The position numbers and the translations under genes are program-made. DNA of 64,000 bases from Zoopage sp. CT-All. Its lineage: Eukaryota > Zoopagomycota > Zoopagomycetes > Zoopagales > Zoopagaceae. Positions 11,855 through 60,325 of this stretch are shown piece after piece. The stretch is from assembly GCA_004114245.1 (NCBI GenBank), contig QZWS01000001.1, forward strand, positions 1 to 64,000. Reading direction: 5' to 3'. The notes under the pieces are model-generated. The model ran no database searches. It was given only the letters and a program-made list of their open reading frames with translations, and was not told where the DNA came from. The stretch's first letter is position 1; the number at the start of each line of letters is the position of its first letter.

Positions 11855-13228
11855 ATGCACGACAAAGACACCTCATCGCAGCTCGCTGAGGCGTTCTCGC
11901 GCCAGTTTGGCGAGGCGCCGCCCGTCTACGACGACGACGCCGATTCCATCCAGGGCGCAAAGCTCGAGTTCGGCGCCGCGCCACCCCAGCCCGAGGGAAA
12001 TGTCACCGTCGCCCGGGGCGTGTTTCTCCTCCTCAAGGCATTTGTTGGCACCGGGATCCTTTTTCTCCCCAAGGCGTTCCTCAACGGCGGCATGATCTTC
12101 TCCATCATCGTCCTGCTCGTTGTTGCCGCTCTCTCCCTCTGGTCCTATCTCCTGCTCGTGCGTGCCCGTGAGCACTGTCCCCGTGGCGGGTCATTTGGTG
12201 ATATCGCTGAGCAGACCATGGGCAAGTATATGCGATTTCTCGTCCAGTCGTCTGTCTCGCTCTCCCAGATCGGCTTCGTCTGTGCCTACATGATCTTTAT
12301 CGCCGAAAACCTCCGCGCCTTTGTTCTCAACGTCTCTCACTGCGCCGCACAGCCCCCCATAGGCGTCCTGATCGTGCTCCAGCTCATCGTCTTTATTCCC
12401 TTTTCAATGATCCGGCGCATTGAGCGCCTCGGCTTCGCCACTATCGTCTCGGAGGTTTTCATTCTCTTTGGCCTCGCCTACATCTACTACTACGATATCA
12501 AGGTGCTTGTCGCCAACGGCATGGCTCCCTCCGTAAAAGCATTCAACGCAGAGGACTTTGCCCTTTTCATCGGCACCGCCGTCTACTCCTTTGAAGGCAT
12601 CGGCCTGGTCATTCCCATCACCGAGGCCATGCGCCACCCCGAGCGCTTCCCCCGCGTGCTCTATATCACTCTCTCCGTCGTCGCTGTACTCTTTATCTCC
12701 GTCGGCGCCTTGTCGTACGCTGCGTTCGGTGACAAAACCGCCGACATGGTTGTCTCCAACCTGCCGCAAGGCGAGCCCATTGTCAGCGCCATCCAGCTCA
12801 TCTACGCCCTCGCCATCGTCCTCTCCGTTCCCCTGCAGCTCTTCCCTGCCATCACCATCCTCGAGAATGGCACGTTTGGCCTCAATCGCTCTGGTAAGGA
12901 CGCGCTCAAGTGGAAGTGGAGCAAGAACGCGTTCCGCGCCTTCCTGCTCGTCATCTGCGTTGGTATCTCGTGGGGCGGCTCCAGCAATCTCGATAAATTC
13001 GTCTCCCTTATCGGCTCCTTTGCTTGCATTCCGCTCTGCTTCATCTACCCGCCGCTCTTCCACTGGAAGTCGGGCGCGTGCGGTAGGTCGTACTTTAAGT
13101 TCTTGTCCAACATGGCCCTTGCCGTATTTGGCGTCGCCGTCATGATATACGGTACCTGGATCACCGTCAAACAGTGGGCAGCTACTGGTCCCGCGCACGA
13201 CATATGCGCTGCCCACAACATGCAGTGA
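11855..13228 (+). CDS. Vacuolar-type amino acid transporter, AVT3/SLC36 (AAAP) family
   Basis: A 457-residue polytopic protein, one exon, ATG at 11855. A soluble ~50-residue acidic N-terminus is followed by about eleven hydrophobic segments. The first gives GVFLLLKAFVGTGILFLPKA, the family signature. FALFIGTAVYSFEGIGLVIP is the conserved mid-protein motif, and PLQLFPAITILE is typical of AVT3/AVT4-like exporters. Yeast Avt3/4 export neutral amino acids from the vacuole, whereas animal SLC36 works at lysosomes or the plasma membrane. Vacuolar export is the best guess; the substrate cannot be read from sequence. Confidence 0.88.
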   Translation: MHDKDTSSQLAEAFSRQFGEAPPVYDDDADSIQGAKLEFGAAPPQPEGNVTVARGVFLLLKAFVGTGILFLPKAFLNGGMIFSIIVLLVVAALSLWSYLLLVRAREHCPRGGSFGDIAEQTMGKYMRFLVQSSVSLSQIGFVCAYMIFIAENLRAFVLNVSHCAAQPPIGVLIVLQLIVFIPFSMIRRIERLGFATIVSEVFILFGLAYIYYYDIKVLVANGMAPSVKAFNAEDFALFIGTAVYSFEGIGLVIPITEAMRHPERFPRVLYITLSVVAVLFISVGALSYAAFGDKTADMVVSNLPQGEPIVSAIQLIYALAIVLSVPLQLFPAITILENGTFGLNRSGKDALKWKWSKNAFRAFLLVICVGISWGGSSNLDKFVSLIGSFACIPLCFIYPPLFHWKSGACGRSYFKFLSNMALAVFGVAVMIYGTWITVKQWAATGPAHDICAAHNMQ

Positions 13229-14575: not shown

Positions 14576-17500
14576 TTATACCAAGACATCCTCTTCGTCT
14601 GCTAGTTCCATCCAGTCATCAACCACGCCCGAATCCAGATCTACCCCGCTATTCCCAGCTGTGCCATCTACTAATGCACCTCCCTCCAACGCCTTGTGCA
14701 CCGCTATCATGCCAGTCACACCAACAGCTGCCGGTGGTGACTGAGACAATGCCGAGAACGGATTCTTCGTCACCACAGGTATTTGTGAAATGGCCACAGT
14801 TTGCGCTACAGCGGGTCGTGGCCCGGGAGTCTTGGTGACGTCGCATGCTGTTGCCTCCGCTAGCACATGCAGCTCGCCCTGCGCATCAATGTGGCACGGC
14901 TCTACTCGTACCGACATGCCAGCTTTCTGGAATTGGTCTCGGACAACTTGGAGACACAATAGCACCCGGTCAAACATTTCACCGGCTGTTATCCACTGGC
15001 TCGACGTTGGTATTACCACAACCGTTGTTCCATCCGGCAGCCATTTGAGAGCATAGCTGAATGCCAATGCTATGGATAGATGCGGCCTGATATCACCGTC
15101 AAGCGTGCCATGCGCCAGTTTGGATAAGCGAAGCGCGTTTGGCGACAATCGCACTTTGCTGGCCTCATGAATCGTCGCTTCCCTGCAAGTCAAGTTAGCC
15201 ATCTCGCGGCAATCAAGAGCTATCCTACCTCGCCTGTTCAATCACACGCGACGCTGGCATGCCGCTAAACTTGATCAAGCTCACAGCAGGAATCGCTGTG
15301 CCTGGTCGCTTATACAACACCACGCTCCGATGTGGCTCGGGGTCTTGCGACTCGGTGACAATCCCATACGCCTCGGCCAGTGCATGTACAAAATGCCGCT
15401 GCGGAGCCCGCATTGATGGCAGGGTCTGCGTCGCACGAGATCCAACAACAAACTCCACCAACTGCTCTTCAATCCGTCGCGCCCACGCCGGGTTTAATCG
15501 CGTCATCTCAATTAAATGCTGCTCGTACACCTGCGCGGAAGCCAGTGTTTCCGGATCCCGGTTGATATCCAATGCCTGCGCGAGTCCCTTGAGCTGCTGG
15601 ATCTTATCACACATGTCATCGCAGACGAGCCGGCATGCCAAAACCTTGGGTGCTGCAGCAGTGGAATCACACCTGCCACGAACGAGCCTTCGTCCACAAG
15701 GGCACTGCACATCCACCTCCCGTGGACAAGGCTTGGCCATATCGCATACAGCTGGTGCATGACATGCATCTGCGCATGGATGCCCACAGTCCGTCCGTGG
15801 TTTGCCACACACCTCTCGGCACAATGCTCCGTCCACCCGACACTCACCATCATGACACACCCGTCTGCACTTGTGCCCACCACAGGGAAGTATCTCCCCA
15901 CACACGTCGCCACAGGACGGGGCCTGGCGGTGGCATGGAATATGCGGGACCTGGTTCTTTCGACACCGGCACGTCTTGGTGACAAGCAAGACGCACGGAG
16001 GACACGGTTCATCGACGGGATGGCATGTATGCGGGGTCAGCACGTGTCCACATGGAGTGCTTTGACCCTGGAGTACTTGGCACGGATGCGCACATTTGGG
16101 CAACTTGGCATTGCAGGCAATTGGCGGGAAAAGACGGGTGCGACCGCAGGGACAAGCGAGCTCGTCAAAACTGGAGAGCAGGCACGGCGGACAATGACCT
16201 GGGTGGCACTCGATGGGGCAGGTATGCACGCCACAGCGTAGCTTCTTCCCACACGTTCGCGGACATTTGTGCTCGACAGGTGTGATAGCCTCCAGCTGAG
16301 CGGGATGGAGGCCGGGCGGGGATATGAATGTGCGTGCCGGACAACATTTTGTTGTACACCGGTGGCGGCCACAAGCCAATTTTCGTTCGCACGGACGGCC
16401 GCACGTTAGCACCGACGATGCACTATCGGAATGGCAGGGCAAGTCTTTGACGACGGCACTGCATCGACAGGGTACTCTCACCGTTGCGATACAATCTGGA
16501 CATGGACCAGCATGACATCTGAGCGTACAGTAGTGCCCACATGCGAGTGGCTTGTCGCAGACGCCAGAGCACAGAGGCACTGGATCTACGCATGACCGTC
16601 GCGGACTTGACCGCAACGAATCGATAGACGCTTTGCCACACGGGCATCTGTGAACGCGATTCGGAGCCATGGGACACGCTTCGGGGAGCTTTTCCACAGG
16701 ATGGCATGGCTTCGAACAGGAATGCACGCCACAATCGTACGCCTCGGCACAGACAGAGCCACACGAAAACGACCCAGTTCTTACCTCGCGATCGTCAGCT
16801 GTATGAGTAAGCTGGTCTCTGCCTTGACCGCAGGCAACGTCCCGTTCAACAGCATGCGCGCAGTAGCATATTTGATGTTGTATGATGCCACACGGGGGAC
16901 AGACGCCGTCGTGGCACACCTTGGCGCACGAATGCTGACCACACGAAAGCGACTTGCCACATGCAGCATCACACGATCGACCACGATTTGGGTGAGCACC
17001 ATCATCTGCGCATCGCACAACAAATTCGTCTTTTGTGCACCAGCACTGCGCAGTAATGGTTGCGGCGCAGGGTGGACAAGGACCAGGGTGGCACATTTCC
17101 GTGCACGGATGTGGACAGGACGACGCCTGTCGCATTCTCCCGCAAAGACCGTCGCAAGCGTGTGGGGTGATAAAGCGATCGGAGACAGAAGGATTTACGC
17201 ACTTGCCGCAGAAGCAGCGATACTCGTGTGGGACGCCGGACACTGCGGAGTTACACCCAGGGCACCGCCAGTCTTCGGCCATCGCAGCGGTAGAGGCGGA
17301 GGCAGAGGCGGACGCAGCTAACGATTTTTTGGCCCAGGTTTTGACACATGCGAGGTGCATGACGGCGTAACATACGCTGCACGACCAAGTTGCGTGACGT
17401 CGTTTGATGGCGTCGACGCACACCATGCATTCATGAGTTTGAACCGTCAGTGTGTCCTTTAGCTTTGTCATTAGATCCGATTCAGCTACACGGATCAAGT

Positions 17501-17926
17501 CAGTGAACAATAGTCATACGAATGAGCATAGTTTATACCATGACGAGAGTCGGAAACGGAATCGATTCGATGTGCTGGTGTTGACGTCGATACTGCCGTG
17601 GGGGAATGCCGCATCTGCTGACGACCTCCGCGCCCTCGACGACGACCCTCAGTGCCCGTACCGGCAGTAGGCCTCCCACGACCTCTTGTATTACTTCCAG
17701 CCTCGCTTGCGGATGGATTGAATGCCGTGGCTTGGGCATTCAGTGCGGGTGCCGATGTCAGCTGAGGATGGATGCCGCCACGTCGCGCACCCCTGCCACC
17801 GCCGCCACGCGACGCATGTGCGCTTCCATTTGCACGGCCTCTCCCCCGTGTACGTCCCCGACCGCGGGGCTGCGTGGAAGTATTTGGCTGGCTACCGTTG
17901 TCGCTCATGAGGGGAGTGGAAGACAT
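14576..17926 (-). CDS. FAP1: NF-X1-type zinc-finger and R3H protein (FAP1 / shuttle craft family)
   Basis: Three exons. Exon 1 (start 17926) encodes a long Arg/Gly-rich RGRGR-type N-terminus. The second starts with ESDLMTKLKD and carries a PHD/RING-like segment, HECMVCVDAIKRRHATWSC, then a series of NF-X1 Cys/His repeats of the form CG--L-CG-H-C---CH-G-C--C (for example LRCGVHTCPIECHPGHCPPC). After them comes an R3H-like segment (FVHALAEAYGIVTESQD). A 46-nt intron near 15184-15229 joins to REATIHEASKVRL and the C-terminal region ending in ADEEDVLV. Yeast Fap1 binds FKBP12 and confers rapamycin resistance; animal members act in transcription and as putative ubiquitin ligases. The start is 57 bp from the divergent ZNF277-like gene. 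Confidence 0.9.
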
Positions 17927-24570: not shown

Positions 24571-26334
24571 TCATGCGAGCCATTTCCCCACCAGCTTGGA
24601 CGCTGCAAACGTCTGCTCCGACGCATGCTTCGCAGCGACCACCTTGTGAAGCGTCGTCCGCGCCATGACATGCACGAGAATATTAATGACGTCTTGGAGC
24701 TGGTTCCGGGTGTACCCGCTGTAGTAGATATGCGCATTGGTCCATGACCGATGATTACAAACGTCCAGGGCGATGGCATACGCAGCCGAGCCGATCTGAC
24801 TAGGCACGTACCCGATCAACTGCTCAGTCATCAGCGCAACGTCAAGGATATATTTGGCCACAGAGCGAATGACCGTATCGTGGTCGTCCGCGGTGCCAAG
24901 GCGTCGCACAAAGTGGATTGGGCTGGGGTATCCAAGGTCAAACCCGAGAAGTTTGACCATGAAGCGCTCTGCGCTTTGGAGCTCCGCGGTGGTAAACGCG
25001 CCAGATCCCATGTAGACCATATCGGAAAAGAGCGGAGGATTGGTTTCTTCGTACTTGCTTGCAATCAGCAGGCCCGCAGCACCAACAAGCTGCAGCTTGG
25101 ACATGGAAATGACTTTCTTGGATAGAAACCTGTCGATCAGGTTGACGGCGAGATGCAGCGTCTCCGGAATGAGAAGAAAGCGCTCGTGAACCTGCACCGT
25201 CCACTCGATAAGCAGAACGCGCATGCTCCATTCTAGCTCGGGTTGGCGGTCAATGTAGTCCGGATCGGCCAGGTATTTTCGCTAGACACGCAGGTCAATG
25301 TGGCAAGATCACAACCGCTGCTCACCTCGACAACCTTGAGGTGATTGTGAATATCATTGGCATATTCCTCGCACACACCATTATGGTGGTGTGCCACTTC
25401 AACAAACGATGCCGTGACTTCCCTCACGATTCGGCACTCCCTTTCTTCGGCCGTCTCTTCATTCCAACCCGCCTTCATATCAAAGTTGCCGAAAGCGAGA
25501 TCGTCCAGGGCATCATCAAAGTAATCCTCGGCATCCTGATCGTCCTCATCCAAGGTTCCGAGCGATGCCTGACCCAGACTGACAATAGCATCGATAAAAT
25601 TCGGATCGTAGAAGGTACGAGTTGTGCGAACACTGGTCGGTGCGTTATGGCTCGGCGGTGAGGCATACAGGGCGCGATTGTTCATGACATTCTTCATATG
25701 CGTATCGGGAGTTGGTGCGACAGATGTCTCACGCCACCCTCCAATCCGATGGTCATTATGCCTCCGCGAAGACCTCTTCCTCTGCGCAGATGCTCGCGAT
25801 TCCGAGGTCGCGGCGGTTGGAATTCTGCGGGCCGAAGCTCGTGCTTTGACCAGCGTGGACTCGTGGAAATAGCTAGCGACTGTAGTGCTCGCCAGTAGCT
25901 TAATAGCGCCGCTCTACAATACACAATCATTTAAGCAGTAAGAATACGCGCCGTACAGTGTTTGCACTGGTCGAATTGGCCATAGCCATCCCAGCTCGAG
26001 GAGTCGGCTCTCCGAGGACACCCTCCTTTGGCACCACTCGTTGTTTTTTCGCAGTTACGAGTCCTTGGTTATCCGAGTTTTCACGAGCATGCTTTGAAGC
26101 CGCCCGCGTCAAGCGAATCGCGGTGCGCGGCTCAATTAGTTCCGGGGCAGCAACATAGCCAACCTCAACGCTGGATCGTGTGGCAAGGCGGCGGGATGAC
26201 CGCGTCCTGTACACCGTCTGGACCTCGGAAGTGTATCCACCATTAACGGAGTTCTTATTAGCCTATAGAATATAGCGTGAGGGAGAAAGGACCGTGGAGG
26301 GGAGGGTGGGTACGTTTGTTGACACATCAGCCAT
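24571..26334 (-). CDS. B-type (mitotic) cyclin
   Basis: Cell-cycle activator of Cdk1. Exon 1 is only MADVSTN (26334-26314), joined by a 51-nt intron to ANKNSVNGGYTSEVQTVYRT. Another short intron near 25927-25970 leads on to SGAIKLLASTTVASYF, and a third near 25280-25320 leads to the cyclin box. The box holds RVLLIEWTVQVHERFLLIPE and LQLVGAAGLLIASKYEE, the MRAILVDWL-like and MLIASKYEE signatures of cyclin B. The second cyclin fold follows (AKYILDVALMTEQLIGYVPS). I see no RxxL destruction box in the N-terminal ~200 residues; a REN tripeptide (in HARENSDN) is the closest to a KEN box. Confidence 0.85.
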
Positions 26335-31194: not shown

Positions 31195-33345
31195 TCACCG
31201 CTCCAGCGAAGCTAGTACGTCGCTCAAATCCATATCACTAGCCTCGGCTGGCTCGGTGGACGGCCCGCCACCAATATACGAATCACCCCCGACCGAGACT
31301 GGTCCAAAGTCACTCATCACACTCCATGAGGACCGGTCAGCAATGTTCTCACTGCTGTCGGGCCTATAAAGCAGCGAAGAGTCGGACCAGGCCATGGATG
31401 TATCTTCGCTTTCCGTTGCTTCGACGCGGAGCTCGGATCTCCTGCGCCGTCCAGCGGGAGTGGCCGAATCGGAGTCGTTTGCAGCGCGTGCGACGGCAAC
31501 CGCAGTGACACTTGTAACGGCTGTGGTGGCTGCCACCCGTGTGCTCCGCTGCCACCACCCGTCCTCTTCGCGATTGTGTGTCGCCAGTCGCTGTTGCAGC
31601 CGCGCTCGATACTTTTCGCGATGCTTGCGGATATCCGCGGGCGTGACCTTGCGTGGCGTACGAACCAGCTCCTCATCAGTGCTGTCTCTCTCATCCAGCC
31701 ATTTGCGACGTAATTCTCCGGCCCAGGTAGCGCGGCGTTTACTCGCGCTGGCTCCACGGGTCGGCGCGCTCGTCCCATTCCTAGCCGACGCCTCCTCTCC
31801 ATCCTCCTCTTTTTCTCGTCCGTTTATTCCTAATTTCTTGCGGTTTTCGCCGCAATCATGCGCCGTAGTTGGCCGACGCTGGCTCTCGCTGCCGTCCGTC
31901 AACTTCTCTCGGCCCTGCAGCGCAATCATGTGCTCAACACGGGCCCGTTCACGTTGCCACCGGCTTTCCCATATAGACACCTGACTGCGCAGCTCGACCA
32001 CCTGCCGTCGCCGATCGGCCATGAGACCCTCGTTGCGCTGCACGACCGTCGCTAGCGAGGCCTGCGAGGATTTGGCTGCGGCAAGCTCTGCCGTGAGCAT
32101 ACGATTGGCGGTGGTGAGATGTGCTATTTGCATTTGGAGTCGCAGGATAGTGCCCTGAGTCTCTCCGGCAGCGGTTGGTGGTGGTGGTGTGGAGGGAAGC
32201 GTGGAGGCACGGGCCAATCGCGATGCGAGTGCTTCCGGTCGTGATGCACTACCCGCACCATGCAGGCCATCCAGTGATCTGAACGCATCCTTGAGCGACG
32301 TCTTCTGCGGCGAGACGGGGTTATTGCGTACGGACGACGTCCAGGTGAAATCCAACGTTTCGTCATCGTCGGTGGAGGATCCATCCGAGCTGGATGGCGT
32401 CTTGAACGTCACAGATGCCAGATTCTTCGATGAGCGAGATAATCGCGTGCTGGCAGCACGATCCTGGGATTCTTCGTCGTCATCATCAGAGTCCCATGCC
32501 AGAGCTTCCTCCTCAGTCACGTCGCGCAGACTTGCAACCGGCGAAGCACATTCCAGCATATTTTCCTGAATTGTCGAGACAGCAGATGTGCGAGAAAGCA
32601 GCGCACTTTTAGCAGGAGACATCGCAGAAACAGAGGGAGCGGGCGACATAATCGACTCTGCGACGTTGCCTTGAAAGAAATCGCCTTGATCAATCATTGA
32701 GAGTAGATCACGCACGGACGAGTCCTGCGAGCGCGATACATGAGCCGTATCAACCTCGCCCCAGCTGTACACCCGATGTGCGTCGCTCTCGGCGGACGGT
32801 GAGTCGGCATCGATCAGGGGGTCGACGGAAGCACGATGGGATGAGGCGTGAGCATTCCCAGTAACAGTGTCTGAAATAACTTCGTCATCGTCTTCGTCAT
32901 CGTCTTCGTCATCATCGTCCCAGATATTTGACTCAATGTCGGAAACATCCTGTGGATCATCATCGAGGAAGAGCTCTGCGGTGGATTCCTCGGAATTCCC
33001 CGATTCCGACGGCGACGGCGACGATTGCTCCAACGTCGGCGCGGCATCAGCGGTCTTCCTATATGCCTGTCGCGAATCCTCCTCGGCAAGCACCGCGAGC
33101 ACCAAAACCGGGGTAATCTCTCGCTTCAAACTCCCCGAGACGTCATCGCCGTCTGGCGCAACCGAGGGCAGCATCAGCATCGGCATTATGTTGTCGGGCA
33201 TCGAGCGGCGGCGCGCCGACGGCACTGCGCCCGGAGAGCGGGGAGATATGATCGTCGGATGCATCTCATCGACACGAAACACCACGGGGCTAACGGCGCT
33301 TGAAGGGTGGTGGTGGGTTGGAGGCGGAGCGTTGTCGGGGGACAT
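31195..33345 (-). CDS. Large disordered acidic protein with coiled coil, unknown function
   Basis: 716 residues, one exon, start at 33345. The first ~250 residues are Ser/Pro/acidic, with two Asp/Glu tracts (for example DDDDEDDDEDDDE). The middle has a coiled coil (RLQMQIAHLTTANRMLTAEL, then VVQRNEGLMADRRRQVVELR). A basic region with TWAGELRRKWLDERDSTDEE and PADIRKHREKYRARLQQRLA follows, then a Ser/Asp-rich tail ending in DLSDVLASLER. No domain recognised. The layout suggests a cytoskeletal or chromatin scaffold, but that is speculation. Confidence 0.6.
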   Translation of the reverse strand: MSPDNAPPPTHHHPSSAVSPVVFRVDEMHPTIISPRSPGAVPSARRRSMPDNIMPMLMLPSVAPDGDDVSGSLKREITPVLVLAVLAEEDSRQAYRKTADAAPTLEQSSPSPSESGNSEESTAELFLDDDPQDVSDIESNIWDDDDEDDDEDDDEVISDTVTGNAHASSHRASVDPLIDADSPSAESDAHRVYSWGEVDTAHVSRSQDSSVRDLLSMIDQGDFFQGNVAESIMSPAPSVSAMSPAKSALLSRTSAVSTIQENMLECASPVASLRDVTEEEALAWDSDDDDEESQDRAASTRLSRSSKNLASVTFKTPSSSDGSSTDDDETLDFTWTSSVRNNPVSPQKTSLKDAFRSLDGLHGAGSASRPEALASRLARASTLPSTPPPPTAAGETQGTILRLQMQIAHLTTANRMLTAELAAAKSSQASLATVVQRNEGLMADRRRQVVELRSQVSIWESRWQRERARVEHMIALQGREKLTDGSESQRRPTTAHDCGENRKKLGINGREKEEDGEEASARNGTSAPTRGASASKRRATWAGELRRKWLDERDSTDEELVRTPRKVTPADIRKHREKYRARLQQRLATHNREEDGWWQRSTRVAATTAVTSVTAVAVARAANDSDSATPAGRRRRSELRVEATESEDTSMAWSDSSLLYRPDSSENIADRSSWSVMSDFGPVSVGGDSYIGGGPSTEPAEASDMDLSDVLASLER

Positions 33346-33501
33346 GGCCGCGGCAAACAGGCTGAGGAGTTATATCGAGCCGAGTCAAAGCTTCAGCAGT
33401 GGCCAGTGGATCGGCCTGACATAAATTGCGGCGAGGTAATTAATCACAATGATGAATTCTGCTGGTGCATATCCAGTCGCAGTTTCCCACTGCACCGCTG
33501 A

Positions 33502-33559: not shown

Positions 33560-34200
33560 ATTGATGAATGGGCTGTGCTGCATAGGTGTTGAAATATATG
33601 TTTGTTTGTTTGGGCTTGAATGGTTTCCTAGGATGTCAAGTCTTGGGCATGCTTTGCTCTCAAATACTGTATTCTATTTGGCAGAGTATACTACTATATA
33701 GTATTAGCTGCTATACCTTTGGTATTATGTTACTATACTATTTCAATACTTATACACAGTATAGTTTCTCCATATTGGCTATTTTACTGTGTAATGCATA
33801 GCCTGTTATCTCATACTCTGCACTTGTAGGTGGAGTCTGTAATATATATATAGACATAGTGGATATCAAAACAGAAGCATTGGCCTTGAACAGCACTGTG
33901 CAGCACTGCCACCAAACTCTGGTTGGACTAGGTCAACTCCCACAAACTAGAGCTGAGAATGGAATGACTGTTGATTGCTGACAGCAGACCCCTCTTGGAT
34001 AGCAGTAGAGACCATGGACATACTAGTCAACACAGCAAAAAGAAATCACTGTAACCAACATGCTATCAGACCACTACTTCTAACAATAGTCCTCCCAATT
34101 GGAGCTGGACGCATCAACCAGGGATAAGTTGTGTTGACTGCTACGAAACCTACATCATGTAGATGTCGCATGGCCACCAACAAATCCAAGCATCTGAGTT
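33560..34200. other. AT-rich intergenic island B
   Basis: AT-rich, with TATATATA near 33841 and a TATACTACTATATAGTATTAG stretch near 33688. No gene recognised. Ends shortly before the AMSH-like gene at 34315. Confidence 0.6.
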
Positions 34201-34314
34201 CCGATTTCCTCGGCGGTTGAGTTGCTGTGGCCAGTCTCAGCTTCGCCGCTTCCGCCATCCCGCTTCCTACCCACTTCGCTTCTCATTGCTCGTAAATTAG
34301 CACACACGCCTACC

Positions 34315-35892
34315 ATGTCCACCCTGACGAGAAGCACGCTGGTGGGGGCAGATGCGAGCCCCGACACGGCAACCACTGGGTCCAGCTCCATCCGCGGCGG
34401 CATCGGCCCCGACGACGACCGCTCGTCGGTCACCACGGCGGACGACTACCACGAGCGCGACCTCCCCCCGCCTCCGCCCCCAAAAGACACCGAGGAGGAT
34501 GTGTTTGAGGAGGAGTCGCTGGAGGATGACCACGATGGTGGCCAGCGGGGGCTGCGGCAGGCTAATGGCTCGGTCGCCGTCGTCGAGCGTCCCCCGCGGC
34601 CCCCGCCAAAGCCCGTGCGTGTCACCACCGTCACCGATAATCTCCGTATTCTGTCCGTCCACGATGCTCGCGGCGATGCTATCGATAATCCGGATGACCA
34701 CTACTCGGGCGGATACGACGATGAGGACGCTGATGATATTTACTATTTGCAGGACGAGCAAAAATTCCGGTCGCCACAGGATGGCTCTGGCTTCTTCTCC
34801 TCCATTCTTAGCACGCTCCGGAACCGTGCAGACGGTGACGGAGACAGCGTTGCATCGGCGGATCGTGCCGCTGATGATGGCTACTTCTATCGCGGCAAAT
34901 CCGGGCTTCGCTCTGCGCCTCGCTCGCCGCGCGGCTCCATCGACTCGGCCTGGTCCATTGCTTCGGCGCGAAATGAGTCTGGCGATCCGTTGCGCACCCT
35001 CTACCTTCCCGACCGGCTGCTGGCCCAATTTCTGCATCTGGCACACGCCCATACCCAGCAGAATCTTGAGCTATGTGCGCTGCTCTGCGGCATCCCCCTC
35101 GGGCACAATCACATCACCACCGCGTTCAAGGTTACAACCCTCGCCATTCCCTCTCAAATCTGCTCCTCCGATTCGTGTATAACCCGTCACGAGGAGATCC
35201 TCCACGACGCAGTGCACACCCGCGATCTCATCACCCTGGGCTGGATCCACACGCACCCCACCCAGCGCGCATTCATGTCCTCCGTCGACCTGCATACCCA
35301 TCTCGGCTACCAGATGCAAATTCCAGAGGCAGTCGCCATCGTTTGCGCGCCAACCCAGATCCCGTGGTACGGTGTCTACCGTCTCACGGATCCCCCGGGC
35401 ATGGAAGTCGTGCGCAAGTGCGACAAACCTGGTGTCTTCCACCAGCACGATCGCTGGCGCGAAGAATCCCTGTATCGGGACGTGACAGAAGGCGGGCATG
35501 TGCGGTTTGTGCAGGGCGAAGTCGATGTGCTCGATTTGCGCGAGGAGACGGAGCAGCAGGCAAAATTGCACACCAACGGAACCGACGCAGTGCATGTGAA
35601 TGTCAACGCGGGGTACGATGCGAAGCGCATGTCGGCGCCTGCTACCAATGGCAAAACGTCGCCCACCGCTGCCGCGTCGTCCCAGCGGGCTCGGCGTGAG
35701 AGCAGCGCCAGCATCAAACGAGGCGCCCTTCGCGTGCCCACGTCGTTTGGGTCCAGACGGGGGAAGAAGAGTGCAGCTGCCGAGGGGACACAGGATGGTG
35801 ATGCGATAGCCGCTGATCAGCACGACGGTGGCGAGGCTGACTCGCCCAACGGGCTTCTCCAGCGTGTCTACAGCGTTCGTGGCATCTGGTGA
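34315..35892 (+). CDS. AMSH-family JAMM deubiquitinase
   Basis: Zinc protease that cleaves K63-linked ubiquitin chains on endosomes. The 525-residue frame has a disordered, acidic, Pro-rich N-terminus (~230 residues). The JAMM domain starts near LPDRLLAQFLHLAH. Its motif is complete: the catalytic Glu region (ITRHEEILHDAVHTRD), then GWIHTHPTQRAFMSSVDLHT (H-x-H ... D) and EAVAIVCAP. The domain is central, and about 150 residues follow, ending YSVRGIW. No MIT domain or helical bundle like those of human AMSH is visible at the N-terminus, so recruitment to ESCRT must differ. Family firm, target unknown. Confidence 0.85.
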   Translation: MSTLTRSTLVGADASPDTATTGSSSIRGGIGPDDDRSSVTTADDYHERDLPPPPPPKDTEEDVFEEESLEDDHDGGQRGLRQANGSVAVVERPPRPPPKPVRVTTVTDNLRILSVHDARGDAIDNPDDHYSGGYDDEDADDIYYLQDEQKFRSPQDGSGFFSSILSTLRNRADGDGDSVASADRAADDGYFYRGKSGLRSAPRSPRGSIDSAWSIASARNESGDPLRTLYLPDRLLAQFLHLAHAHTQQNLELCALLCGIPLGHNHITTAFKVTTLAIPSQICSSDSCITRHEEILHDAVHTRDLITLGWIHTHPTQRAFMSSVDLHTHLGYQMQIPEAVAIVCAPTQIPWYGVYRLTDPPGMEVVRKCDKPGVFHQHDRWREESLYRDVTEGGHVRFVQGEVDVLDLREETEQQAKLHTNGTDAVHVNVNAGYDAKRMSAPATNGKTSPTAAASSQRARRESSASIKRGALRVPTSFGSRRGKKSAAAEGTQDGDAIAADQHDGGEADSPNGLLQRVYSVRGIW

Positions 35893-39290: not shown

Positions 39291-41568
39291 ATGGTCCGCG
39301 ACAGCAATGCACGACACCGGTCGCGCGAGCCAAAGCGTCGCATTGATGTGGAATCCGCGGGTAAGCCCTTTGTCGTCGCAACCCCCGTCCTTGAATCGCG
39401 CTGTAGCCAGCGGCACTGTCGTCAAGCAATACCAGCTCGCGTTTTTCATGAAGCGAGAGAAGGAATACTTCCTGCGCGGCGCCTACGATTGTGCCAATAA
39501 CGGTCGTGCAGTGGCGGCGAAATTCTTCAAGTCGCAGGTGATGTTTGCACGTGAAGTGCGCGCGCTCGTCGCCGTCAAGCACGATGTGAGCAACCCTGCT
39601 GCATGCATGCCCGCATGCTTATTTCCTGCCTGCGCAGAATATTATATCGCTGCTGGCCGCGTTCGAGCAGGACCCGATTGAGGAGTACTACCCACTCTGC
39701 TTTCTGATCACGGAAAATGCCAAGCGCAGCCTCGAGTCGTATGGGAACAAAAAGAGGCCGTGGGACAAGGACCGTATGCGGGTGGTGATCAATGACTCAT
39801 TGGCCGGGCTGCAGGCGCTCAGAGACAATGGACTCGGTAAGCAGTCTTGCCTACTTCAGTCTTCTCAAGATAACCACGGCAGTCTATTGCAACTTTGCGC
39901 CGTCATCGATCGCCTACTTTCCCGACGGGTCGGGGTCTGGCCGCTGGAAACTCGTCAACTTCATCTACTGCACATCAAAGGGCTCTGGCGTTGCGGCGCC
40001 ATTCACCGACTATGCGTCGCCCGAGGAGGCACTCGGACATATCAATCGCACGCTCATTCGTGCCGACACAGCAATCGATATGTTTGCGCTTGGTCGTACC
40101 GTGCTGTGGATAATGGGGTTCGGCCACTGGGAGCTCTTTTTCCCGGCCCTGCCCGTCGACCAGGCCACCGACGAGGCCAAGATGGAGTATCTCGCCAACT
40201 CGACCGACGACCTATTTCGCCCTGAAGATATTTCGGATCCGCAGATGCGGAGGATTGTTCAGGCAACGCTGAAGCGCGCACCAGCGTCCCGGGCTGGATT
40301 TAGGAGGATTCTGGCGCTTTTGGACACCGAGGGCGATGTTGACGAGGTGCGCTGCATGTCGTCTTTGGCGTAGGAAATGTGACGCCTGCTTGTAGGACGC
40401 CGTGGACGACGACGCTGAACCCCATGACATTCTCAGTATGTGCGACTCGGATTGCTGCATATGCTGACGAGTCCAGTTGAGCAGCGAGTAATCGCTAGTC
40501 AGTACCGACTTGAAAGCGCCATGGGCCGCGGACGATTCGGTGTTGTTTGGAAGGCAACCGATGTGGACTCGGACTCCATTGTCGCGCTGAAGTTCGCCAC
40601 GAATGACGCTGTGTTCTCCTGCGAGATTGACATGCTGCGTGCTCTTCAAGGACAGCCTGTATGTCTCCTCGGCTGACATGCCTCCTCAGTTCCATGCCTC
40701 GCCCTTTAGAACATTGTCAGCATGATTGACTTATTTGAGAAGGAAGAGTCGTCGGATTTTTATCCGTTCAACGTGCTTGTGATGGACTTGGGAGAACTTT
40801 CCCTGCAAGAGCATGCTCGGTACCAGCGACCGTTTCGCCTTGCCAAAGTCAAGGACATCCTGCAAGACATTGTCATTGGACTGGAAGCTTGCCACGCTGA
40901 AGGGATCATCCATGCAGGTAGTCGCCAGCATTGAACAATTGCTGCATGTCCTGATATTGCCATTCAGATCTGAAGCCATCCAACATGGTGCTGTTCCGTG
41001 GCGCGGACAATGTGGATCAATGGAAGCTTGTGGATTTCGACTCGGCTTGCTCGTCTGTCCAGTATGCGCATGCTTTCTAACTGACGAACGGCTCTAGTTT
41101 TGACGAACCCGTAAATCGCGGCACGTTTGACTTCTGTGCGCCTGAAGTCATCCGAGCATATCGATCGCATCACGTCCCGCGAGCAGCACCAGCGATGGAT
41201 ATGTTCGCCCTTGGTCGTGTCCTGCAATGGATGGCAAGCTCGGAGGGGTGCTTCTGGCCTGGATTGGACGAGCCTGCGACCGATGCGGAGAAGGAAAAGC
41301 TGCTCCTCAGTCCAAAGGAGCTTCACATCGACGAATCCGATTTGCAGCATCGTCCGACACGAAACCTTGTCAAGCAGATGATTGTGAAGGACCCGTCAAA
41401 GAGGTTGACGCTGGCGGCGCTGAAAGTAAGGATATTGCTGCCAACCTCCATCGCCTGACTTTTTGTCAGCGAAGCTCCTATCTTATGATGAACCTAGACA
41501 CATCGTTGGTCTTGGTCACAGAGGGTTGGATACTCCAGTGCTGCCCTTCATTGCTAATAATACCTTGA
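39291..41568 (+). CDS. Tandem pseudokinase-kinase protein
   Basis: One gene in my reading: exons 39291-39360, 39407-39585, 39638-39836, 39883-40346, 40396-40435, 40477-40658, 40710-40917, 40968-~41061, ~41099-41428 and a short last exon, ~620 residues. Domain 1 keeps the Lys (AVAAKFF) and alphaC Glu (AREVRAL), but its catalytic loop reads VYCNFAPSSI where domain 2 has IHADLKPSNM, and its DFG position is VNFI. Domain 2 has GRGRFGVV, VALKF, HADLKPSN, LVDFD and CAPEV, so it looks active. Both share DMFALGR in the C-lobe. The linker exon 40396-40435 is bounded by introns with donor GTATGT and branch TGCTGAC. Ser/Thr kinase; family unplaced. Confidence 0.75.
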
Positions 41569-41643: not shown

Positions 41644-44600
41644 TCACTGATGCGTGCAACCATCGTCAGATGCTTTTCGTTGATATGCTGGACGCTTTGC
41701 GGCCTGATAGCCATACATGACTGGCACCCTTCCACCAGTAGGCCTGGGAGGAGCGGATGGCTGTCGCTGCACATCCAGGTCAGCCAGTCTCCGCTTAGCC
41801 ATCTCATTGCCTGATTTGGCCGACTTTCGATACCATAAGAATGCGACGTTCTTATCCAACTTGACACCGATGCCGTTTTCATGGTAGTAGCCAAACACGT
41901 ACTCTGCAAGGGGATTACCGAGCTCGACTGCTTTCTTGCACCACTCAAACGCTGCTCGTTCGTCCTTGCTAAACACGCCCGGAGCGCCGCGAGCACACCA
42001 AGAGGACAACGCAAGCGCGGCCTCATCGCTGTTTGCTTCGGCTGCGCGACGGTACCAGGTAACCGAGTATTTGGGATCAGTGGGGCAGCCGAGCAGACCA
42101 TGCTCGTAGCAACGGGCCAATTCAACTTGCGCGGGCGCATACGCAAGTTCGGCGCATTTGGAGAAGAGCTTAAGGCCAGTCTTGGCATCGCGGTCGGACT
42201 TTGGTAGCTGGAAGGTTGGATGCGTGCCCGCCAGGAGTTGTGCAAGAAGGAAGGCGCCCTCGGGGTGCTCGGAAGTCGGACTGGCGGCAGCTTTGCGAAG
42301 GTATTTGAGCGCGTCTTTGGTCGATTTTTGAAGCCTCAATTCGCCAAGGAGAACAGCTTTGCCGAGGCGCTAGGAGCATTTTCAGGCCAATCGCTTTAGC
42401 AAGATACTTACATAATTTGCCGCCGGGTCATTCATATTTGACGCACGCTTGTAGTACTCCAAAGCCTTGGATACATCTCCCTTCGACTCGTAGTACAGCG
42501 CGACCTTCCAGCTTGCAGGGGCGTAATCACCCTTCGATCCAGCAAGGAACCACTCGAACGCCGTGCTCTTGTTCACAGATTTGCCGAGTTCACCGTTTTC
42601 GAACCAGAGGCCCTTGATGAAGCATGCCTCGGAGTCACCGTTCTTTGCAAGCGTCTCAATCCAGTATTCTGCTTCTTTGAGCAAATCCTTTCGCTGGGTC
42701 TCGAGCGCAATCTGAGCGGATATGAGCTCAGCAGCATTACGGCCAAATTCAGCGGCCTTTGGCGGATCGGGACGTTTGGCCGTCGCAAGCAGGTATTTGG
42801 CAAACTCGCGCTGCACCCGAACATCCTTGGACTTGCGAGCGTTGTCGAGATAGCGGGCTAGCGCTGCGGGATCGGTGTTGAGCGTTGCTGATGCCTGTTG
42901 GCCAGATTTCTTGAAGCGGGCTTCACTAGCGATGGTGCTTGTGGTAGACCCATGTTGCGTCGCGCTGAGCATGGATGGTGGCCGCAGAACAGCGCTCATT
43001 TTAGCGGCTTCGGAGGTGGGTGTCGCTGATGACGGTTTTTTTGTCGGCACGGCATTATTCGTGGATGCAGTTGTTGGCTGCTGAGGGCGAGAATCAGACA
43101 GCCTCCTGTGTGGCTGAGCAGCGACCGATGCAGCAGCATGCAGCGGTTGTTGCTGAGGCTTTGCGCTGGTGACAGAGGAGGAAACTGCTTGTGCAGTTGC
43201 CTGCTGTTGGGGCTGCTTTTGAGGCTTGCTTGCAAGAGCGTGAGCGGCAACGGATCCAACGACCGCGCCGGCGATGCCTGCCACTTTTGCGGCGCCCGAG
43301 ACAACAGAATAGGCCGAGCTAAGTCGGTTGGAGGAATGCGCAGAGGCGGCCGGTGTTGTGGCAGCTGGGGGACTCGCTGATGCAACAGTGGCGAGTTTGG
43401 TTGTTTGTGAGGGAGTAGAGTATGTGTTTGCTATCGGAGCTTGGGAGTTCGACACCGATGGGCGTGGCGGGAGTGCAGGGGCTGGCGGGGGCGGCGACGA
43501 TGCAGGCACTTGCACAGGAGCGTATACAGATGGTTTTTTCACTGGAACAGAAGCAAACGACTGCGCTGGAGAAATTCCAGACCGTTTATTAATTGGGATC
43601 GAGGTGGCTGATGGGGCACTGGTGACACTTGGAGTAGTTCTGTTTGATGTGGGTGGTGGCGTCTGCTCCTCATCCTCATCCTCGTCCTCGTCAGGCTCTT
43701 CCGCGAGGTCGCCCGCACCAAAGCTGAGTTTGGTGCCAGGCGGGAAACCTGGAACCTCCGACGGCGGCTTTTCGGGATATGAGGAGGCTGACGGTGTTGA
43801 TGAAGGAGATGCTGCTAATACCACTGAAGCGGGCATTTTGAATGATGCAGCTGCCGATGAAGCGGAAGATATGGCAGTATCTTGGCGAGTTGGAATACGC
43901 TGCGGTGATACGATCGTCGATCGAGGTGGTGTCGCATGAGAGGAATGGCTGGCGGATGGTGCAACAGGGGCTGTCATAGGCTTGGTACTAGTCTGGGGAA
44001 ATGGAGTAAACACGGCTGCAGCAGCGTTGGGGGCTGGCGGCGGCGGCTCTTGCGCTAAGCGAACGCCGAACAAAGGAATGCCGCCGACGACCGTTCCAGC
44101 AGGGAACGACATTGAACTGTCATCGTCATCATCGTGGGGTGGCATCGGGGGCACGCCATAGGACAAACTTGCAGCGACATCCGGAGGAAGGTCGTAGTAA
44201 TGCGCCTCGCCATATACACGCGAGTCCGTCCTCATAGACGGGAGAATCCCAGCAGATGTCCACTCATCCGAGTCCCACGGAGTCGGCATCTTCATCACCT
44301 GGGACGCCGGGCGCCGAGCAGCAGCCGCGAGAATAGCGTCGGGCGCGATTGGGGTGAAATCCGATCCCGAAGACACGCCGATGGTGGATTCGGGGGCGGA
44401 GGTGGGTGCGCTAAAAGCCGCGACCACGGGATACTGCTGTCCAGGCTCCGATTCCGGGTTCGAAGACAGAGACGTCGTTGAGCCAGCAGTGGGGGAGTCG
44501 GTAAATGCAGTGGTGGCGGGGTTGCGACGCACAGGGAACCGCGGGGCGCGAGGGCCTGTGAGAACCGAGGTCTGCTGACCGGCGGGGGGCGGGTCGCTTT

Positions 44601-44895
44601 GATCTGTCGCAGCAGCCATTCCTGTCGCCTCTGCTGTTACATCCGCCGCTAGTTCCCCGGTATTTGGCGATGGGGTGACGCCCAACTCCTCCACCACCCA
44701 GGGAGGAAGCGCGGGCCGATGAGGTTTGGCCGACGAGCGCAGCGACATGCGAGCAGCAATGATGCGATCGCTGAGCGTCGACACCGAGCCGCCTGCAGGC
44801 TCTGTCGCAGCGGACGACGTGGTGGCGGCAGGCTGCTTCCAGGCGGGCATGGGACGCGGACCTACTGGCGCCACAGGCGGCACGCTAGGCGCCAT
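41644..44895 (-). CDS. SKT5: Sel1-repeat chitin-synthase activator, Skt5/Chs4-like
   Basis: Two exons: 44895 to ~42415, a ~44-nt intron (GTAAGT...TCCTAG), then to 41644. The N-terminal ~550 residues are disordered and rich in Ser, Pro, Ala and Gln. The Sel1 repeats start at ARYLDNARKSKDVRVQREFA and run to KDERAAFEWCKKAVELGNPL and VFGYYHENGIGVKLDKNVAF, the usual 36-residue A--WY--AAE-G units. Skt5/Chs4 activates chitin synthase III at the bud neck or cell wall. The last four residues are CTHQ, a CaaX-like end; yeast Chs4 is known to be farnesylated. ATG 44895 was chosen over an upstream non-ATG extension. Confidence 0.85.
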
Positions 44896-45221
44896 ATGGG
44901 AAGTATAAACCAAAAATAGTCCACCTGCGGAAAGATTACCGGAGTATGTGGACAGCCGCGCCCGTCGACCAAGAATAGGCACGAGCCTGGAAACATGAAG
45001 GAAACCCACTCTATTATTGGCATGAGTGGGTGAGACACCAGTGCATGTGGGCTATGCACGTGGGCTATCATGTCCATGATCTGCACTGTGAGAGTACTTG
45101 GCCCAGAAGGATAAACACGACGGTCGCCTATAGCATATCATGGCAAAGGTGCTGGAGCAATGGAATGATGCTGGCCTGCCTCCGCGGTGGCCAACACGTG
45201 ATCCACAAAGGCCGCGCCAGC
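44896..45221. other. Divergent promoter region, SKT5 / CTR9
   Basis: 326 bp between the two start codons. I see no reliable gene or binding site. Confidence 0.4.
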
Positions 45222-60250: not shown

Positions 60251-60325
60251 TGCCCCCGACAGGGGTCGAACCTGTGACCTTGGCGTTATTAGCGCCACGC
60301 TCTAACCGACTGAGCTACAGGGGCA
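60251..60325 (-). tRNA. tRNA-Ile (anticodon AAT)
   Basis: The minus strand gives a 75-nt cloverleaf starting TGCCCCTGTAGCTCAGTCGG. The acceptor pairs TGCCCCT with GGGGGCA (last pair T-G). The D arm includes AGCTC...GAGC, the T arm is ACAGGTTCGACCCCTGT, and the anticodon loop CTAATAA gives AAT, so it reads ATT. There is no intron and no encoded CCA. A T-run (TATTTTTGG) follows at once, as expected for a Pol III terminator. Confidence 0.93.

Follow-up and report, generated by a model that had tools for sequence, protein, structure and literature searches.

A putative pseudokinase-kinase gene and its tandem paralogues in a Zoopagales-like fungus

The arrangement in which a pseudokinase adjoins a kinase within one polypeptide is already known. 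JAK proteins, which are tyrosine kinases with FERM and SH2 domains, carry a pseudokinase followed by a kinase, and the plant tandem kinase-pseudokinases (TKPs) are tandem proteins of the receptor-kinase type. Plant proteins of the WTK1/Yr15 type are described as kinase-pseudokinases (PMC6170490), and the pseudokinase of yeast Gcn2 is described as interacting with the kinase domain and activating it in cis (PMC4014428). The gene considered here lies in the window, the 64,000-nucleotide stretch at positions 1 to 64,000 of contig QZWS01000001.1 of the fungus Zoopage sp. CT-All (GCA_004114245.1). This gene (39291..41568, + strand) is read as one member of a small family in a Zoopagales-like fungus, its product consisting of a pseudokinase (domain 1), a linker that varies in length and includes an FDP-like motif, a kinase of the Ser/Thr type (domain 2) and a conserved tail; by sequence the two domains derive from an old duplication, and domain 1 would control domain 2 in cis. 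A probability of about 0.6 is assigned to this reading as a whole. The finding is real, and it concerns a family of several loci rather than a single oddity.

In domain 1, YCNFAPSS (residues 151-158) occupies the position of the kinase motif HxDxKxxN, and NFI (residues 175-177) that of DFG. When the contiguous exon 39885-40346 was aligned with 39 kinases, the columns replaced in domain 1 were found to be near-invariant (H 39/39, D 39/39, K 37/39, N 39/39, DFG D 39/39), and the register of domain 1 is therefore secure. Both aspartates needed for phosphate transfer are absent from domain 1. The original prediction held that domain 1 had lost every catalytic position, which is correct for the replacement of H/D/K/N by Y/N/A/S and of the DFG aspartate by asparagine but too sweeping overall, since the beta3 lysine (K62) and the alphaC glutamate (E73) remain. 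Also retained are the PE of APE, the alphaF aspartate (D215) and the alphaI arginine, at columns that are likewise conserved among the 39 kinases (Pro and Glu of APE 39/39 each, alphaF Asp 39/39, alphaI Arg 38/39). The glycine-rich loop is absent, as read by eye from the alignment. The HRD aspartate is present in all 28 of the other kinase frames inspected in the same genome, a set that was picked for good coverage and is thus biased towards intact kinases.

Domain 1 accordingly has the attributes of a pseudokinase, a kinase fold without catalytic and metal-binding residues, as judged from its sequence and from a model of its C-lobe. A sequence search against solved structures matched domain 1 best to JNK-type MAP kinases (E = 4e-5), as for distant kinases. 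An AlphaFold2 model of exon 39885-40346, covering the C-lobe exon only and built from the 39-kinase alignment, had a mean pLDDT of 77.7 and a pTM of 0.68, and the 50 matches listed from a Foldseek search with it were kinases and the MLKL pseudokinase (best E 2.8e-3); the modelled exon is compatible with a kinase C-lobe.

The exon-intron model of the gene, which is proposed on the basis of splice signals and comparison with paralogues, agrees with the earlier expectation that eight or nine short introns would join two kinase domains in one frame: removal of nine GT-AG introns of 41-52 nucleotides leaves ten exons and an open frame of 617 amino acids (aa), from an ATG at 39291 to a stop codon whose last base is 41568. 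PF00069 matches domain 1, at approximately residues 25-300 (E = 2.2e-9), and domain 2, at approximately residues 318-590 (E = 4.4e-37), both over the curated cut-off, and it is found in two stretches when the complete protein is scanned with Pfam. Exon 1 (39291..39360; all features of the gene are on the + strand) provides the first ATG of the frame in the spliced model and contains no domain. Exon 2 (39407..39585) encodes the pseudokinase N-lobe, with beta3 Lys62 and alphaC Glu73 but no glycine loop, and exon 3 (39638..39836), preceded by a phase-0 intron at a column common to domains 1 and 2, continues from the end of the N-lobe to alphaE. Exon 4 (39883..40346) encodes the pseudokinase C-lobe, in which the catalytic loop and DFG have been replaced. 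Intron 4 (40347..40395, 49 nucleotides, GTGCGC...TTGTAG) contains an in-frame TAG at 40371-40373; it is followed by exon 5 (40396..40435), which encodes the linker (DAVDDDAEPHDIL), the equivalent of the FDP-like motif of the paralogues, and by intron 5 (40436..40476, 41 nucleotides, GTATGT...GTCCAG, phase 1). Domain 2 begins in exon 6 (40477..40658), with the GRGRFG loop, Lys356 and Glu367 of its N-lobe, and extends through exon 7 (40710..40917), which ends at the HA of the HAD motif, exon 8 (40968..41052), with the catalytic loop DLKPSN and DFD, and exon 9 (41098..41425), from the APE motif to alphaI. Exon 10 (41470..41568) encodes the C-terminal tail, in which SS(F/Y)LxMNLDT is a motif of the family, and the stop codon. 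A single intron at 40347-40481, proposed by the spliced aligner, was dropped in favour of the two short introns, which yield the conserved linker instead.

Domain 2 retains GRGRFG, K356, E367, D448, K450, N453, D470 and APE, so that the claim that it keeps the catalytic positions stands for the residues themselves, with the qualification that the motifs are HAD in place of HRD and DFD in place of DFG. DFD occurs in all four second domains of the family and in 3 of 39 comparison kinases, which makes it a family mark and by itself no sign of inactivation. Among solved structures, sequence search matched domain 2 best to CDK2 (E = 1e-13), again as for distant kinases. The fungal protein kinase family PF17667 scores 28.8 bits on domain 2 alone, against a cut-off of 24.1, but this match spans positions 291-372 of the profile (82/387) rather than most of it, and PF00069 fits far better (128.3 bits); domain 2 is not a member of PF17667 by a match over most of the profile. 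In the Pfam scan, PF17667 is missing from the matches of the complete 617-aa protein, though three of the four family proteins match it at E <= 0.01.

The 8.6-Mb draft genome (419 contigs) was searched with each domain as query, and the loci found were modelled with a spliced aligner. Three more loci have a first-type domain followed by a second-type domain: C44 (L041) and, both on the minus strand, C397 (L042) and C374 (L043), with 44%, 39% and 36% identity to the window protein, respectively. Both catalytic aspartates are absent from 4/4 first domains and present in 4/4 second domains. In the order window, C44, C397, C374, the first domains have N, N, A and L at the position of the HRD aspartate, N, N, N and G at the DFG aspartate, and S, S, S and T at the metal-binding asparagine. 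The beta3 lysine is retained in three of the four (it is arginine in C374), while the alphaC glutamate, W-K-L, the alphaF sequence D-x-F-x-LGR and the alphaI arginine are invariant in all four. In the second domains, the Asp, Lys, Asn and DFG Asp are present in 4/4, and the HRD histidine is serine in C397. The tail motif SS(F/Y)LxMNLDT is common to the four tandem loci.

In C44 the first domain runs unbroken through 258 aligned codons of a 277-aa open frame, with neither intron nor stop; by formula, the chance that 250 unconstrained codons would stay free of stops is approximately 6e-6 at saturation. The aligner scores of the first domains are 430 for C44, 302 for C397 and 291.5 for C374, compared with 77-153 for 24 control values from flanking DNA as it stands and in reverse. 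The six flanking stretches tested yielded no additional copy of either domain. The parts of these models that are unsure are the small N-terminal exons of domain 1 in C374, the start of the N-lobe, which is missing in C397, the linker joins of C374 and the 171-nucleotide intron of C44. At a fifth locus, C292 (L044:1335-3500), the second-type domain comes first and a degenerate domain, placed with the first type in the tree (93/92), comes after it, the reverse of the order in the other four; its first-type domain has HCD but lacks the DFG aspartate, and its second domain, with a best aligner score of 238.5, is the least sure of all the domains. An intron in the catalytic loop of the C44 second domain (L041:2430-2580) has GA in place of the expected GT donor, together with a branch-like CTAAC and a terminal TTAG, and this copy may be impaired or spliced unusually. 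Elsewhere in the genome, kinase matches are clustered on contigs C92, C417, C352, C9, C254 and C304, which may represent tandem kinase arrays in a small genome.

The original prediction also proposed an internal duplication followed by decay of the first copy, and the aligned phrases on which it relied are present in the domain alignments. When the ten family domains were placed in a tree together with 28 further kinase frames from the same genome, the ten formed one clade (100/99) and the four first domains another within it (100/93); as a caveat, the program warned of a long row, L060, that joins the branch of the family. First-type and second-type domains have four intron positions in common, phase included (alignment columns 66, 133, 147 and 192), a number reached in none of 200,000 random placements of the same intron numbers, although such placement takes no account of splice-site composition or of the homology by which the gene models were made. 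The family clade and the shared introns thus support a duplication, but not one confined to this gene: a tree that groups the two domains of the window gene with each other is rejected (p-AU 0.0013), and both aspartates are absent from 4/4 first domains, so that decay is an old event. With several paralogues available, the inactivation can be placed before their split. The conclusion from these comparisons is that the tandem duplication of one intron-bearing kinase gene preceded the separation of the four loci, and that the stem of the first domains is the best place for the loss of the aspartates. Since then the first domains have changed faster, with end branches of 0.68-1.01 against 0.30-0.67 for the second domains, and they stayed kinase-like in four loci after inactivation, and since the genome contains at least three more such loci, the dead copy would be an old preserved part rather than a recent wreck.

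The two domains might instead belong to two adjacent genes, a pseudokinase ending at the TAG at 40371-40373 and a kinase starting at an ATG at 40461. This possibility is suggested by the TAG itself, which is in frame after domain 1 unless intron 4 is removed, by the ATG, which lies in the frame of domain 2 and 16 bases 5' of exon 6, and by the frames of C44 and C374, which run into stops between the domains unless introns are removed. It is decidedly improbable, however, in view of C397, in which one stop-free open frame of 291 aa takes in the end of domain 1 as well as the beginning of domain 2; such an uninterrupted passage from one domain to the other supports a single gene. The paralogues also share the linker motif and the tail, and the two linker introns of the window gene are GT-AG introns of unremarkable size (49 and 41 nucleotides). 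Ahead of domain 2 the paralogues have an FDP-like motif and (V)EK(R/Q)..., the counterpart in the window gene being EPHDIL-IEQRVIAS after removal of the two short introns, and a phase-1 intron is found at the matching place before (V/I)E in both the window gene (intron 5) and the C44 model. A scan for promoters and terminators found none between the domains, but it was of the bacterial type and has no bearing on the question. On balance, these features of the sequence favour one gene.

As for the role of domain 1, it would be unable to transfer phosphate, and because the glycine loop is gone too, it is probably also a poor binder of ATP. Some predicted pseudokinases are reportedly active, and the beta3 lysine and alphaC glutamate of the window gene could be taken to hint at an unusual residual catalysis, but with the HRD aspartate, DFG aspartate and metal-site asparagine absent from 4/4 first domains and the glycine loop absent from the window gene, this is scarcely credible. 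It is also rather unlikely that domain 1 is a jobless relic drifting towards loss. The catalytic aspartate has been replaced differently among the paralogues, domain 1 changes faster than domain 2, and the beta3 lysine has become arginine in C374, all of which would fit a relic; against it stand the long uninterrupted frame of C44, the structural positions invariant in 4/4 first domains, and the order and linker motif kept in 4/4 tandem loci. The chief functional rival, by analogy with the bait idea for plant tandem kinases, is that domain 1 serves as a bait or adaptor, which would bind outside proteins and report to domain 2 rather than act as a built-in brake or activator. Plant tandem kinase-pseudokinases are described as acting in immunity (PMC6170490), several copies sharing one type of enzyme would suit a set of sensors, and domain 1 is more variable than domain 2 among the paralogues; higher variation is equally expected of any copy that is not an enzyme, and this role, while worth considering, is judged unlikely. 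The most likely reading, control of domain 2 by domain 1 in cis, is favoured by the retention of structure, order and linker motif together with the precedent of Gcn2. Domain 1 would dock on domain 2, presumably the working enzyme, and hold or switch its activity, and domain 1 may have been retained owing to this docking and control, as the Gcn2 pseudokinase acts on its neighbour. The suggestion already made from the JAK- and GCN2-like layout, that the first domain controls the second, may be right and is reasonable by layout.

Several observations weigh against the reading of an old, conserved, cis-controlling pair. The case is a sequence-based one, and the Foldseek matches of the C-lobe exon model are weak (0/1895 at E <= 0.001). 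The open first-domain frames of C397 and C374 are weaker evidence than that of C44, being partly built in by an aligner that avoids stops. Between the domains, C44 requires an intron of 171 nucleotides, longer than the other introns, and C374 has an in-frame stop in a linker that was joined by hand with its splice signals unchecked. C44 further has a non-GT donor within its kinase domain and no intron in its first domain; the window gene's own two domains share exactly one intron position (column 66), a second being three columns off; and the first-type domain of C292 sits behind the second-type one. In the tree, the second domains do not form a supported clade (72/80), and the faster evolution of the first domains fits weaker constraint as well as it fits a different function.

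The host was placed by means of RPB2 (C370), which is 72% identical to that of Piptocephalis. In a tree of 32 rows chosen from the 120 matches listed, it joins Syncephalis and Piptocephalis at 100/100 and Piptocephalis alone at 89/74, on a long branch (0.84), which points to a Zoopagales-like fungus. Sequenced Zoopagales are described as including uncultured mycoparasites (PMC6784888). No exon in the whole genome matched Pyr_redox_dim (PF02852), which was matched in 14 of 14 control genomes; an incomplete assembly, a reduced fungus or a domain split by introns may account for the miss. The tandem kinase gene lies tail to tail with Sel1-repeat frames on the - strand (41644-45051, with PF08238 in 41647-42369), which come within approximately 75 bases of its stop. 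Other likely genes in the window encode an amino-acid transporter (11855-13225, + strand), an R3H/NF-X1 zinc finger protein (15228-17513, - strand), a cyclin (24574-25281, - strand) and a JAB domain protein (34198-35889, + strand); a CENP-Q match (31198-33369, - strand) is below its own cut-off, and a tRNA is located at 60251-60324 (- strand).

Relatives with the tandem arrangement were sought in a protein database that includes Syncephalis and Piptocephalis proteins, as the RPB2 rows show. None was found with the full tandem as query (135 matches, of which the best 120 were examined; kinases only; best 83 bits) or with a profile of the four proteins (111 matches; kinases only; best 82 bits). 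Among the 226 kinase proteins from both searches, none was a closer match to domain 1 than to domain 2, and a single protein, the bacterial P0001, has two kinase places. Candidates were restricted to those of 0.55-1.75 times the query length with shared words, approximately 8000 being scored per search, and because of these limits a diverged tandem relative may be missed. Eleven NCBIfam kinase families were matched, none over its own cut-off. A literature search on pseudokinases and Piptocephalis found nothing, and a fungal tandem family was not met in a search that returned mainly work on plants, JAK, GCN2 and pseudokinases in general, which is no proof of its absence in print.

Of the known systems, GCN2, an eIF2alpha kinase present in fungi, is alike in having a pseudokinase ahead of a kinase in one chain, an order that the gene model reproduces. 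It differs in its RWD and HisRS-like domains: the Pfam scan of the 617-aa protein at E <= 0.01 shows two kinase families and no non-kinase domain. One HisRS-type match is listed in the genome, on C297, and an RWD search is uninformative on the genome, as no control genome was matched either. JAK is alike in the same order of domains, but the tandem protein has no FERM or SH2 match in Pfam, and its HADLKPSN loop contrasts with the catalytic loop of tyrosine kinases, so that it is not a JAK. The plant TKPs of the WTK1/Yr15 family likewise have two kinase-fold domains in tandem, one of them dead; here the dead domain comes first in 4/4 tandem loci, the organism is a fungus, and PF00069 fits better than PF07714. 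The likeness to PF17667 is confined to domain 2, which is over the cut-off with a partial profile match that is surpassed by PF00069. The layout resembles those of GCN2 and JAK; membership in either fails. A further proposal, on which the odds are about even, is an origin independent of GCN2, JAK and plant tandem kinases: in a lineage-specific fungal family, one kinase would have been duplicated, with catalysis lost from the first copy before the family diverged; the pair would then have spread to four loci or more, its order perhaps changing once (C292), and the kinase would have come to be ruled in cis by its dead duplicate. If true, a single genome would offer several replicate cases of the evolution of pseudokinase control, and the paralogues with their shared introns would permit one to ask what stays and what goes as a kinase becomes the regulator of its own twin. 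A candidate signalling family would be added to Zoopagales, and pseudokinase-kinase pairs, familiar from a handful of well-studied proteins, would include a separate family in an early-branching fungus.
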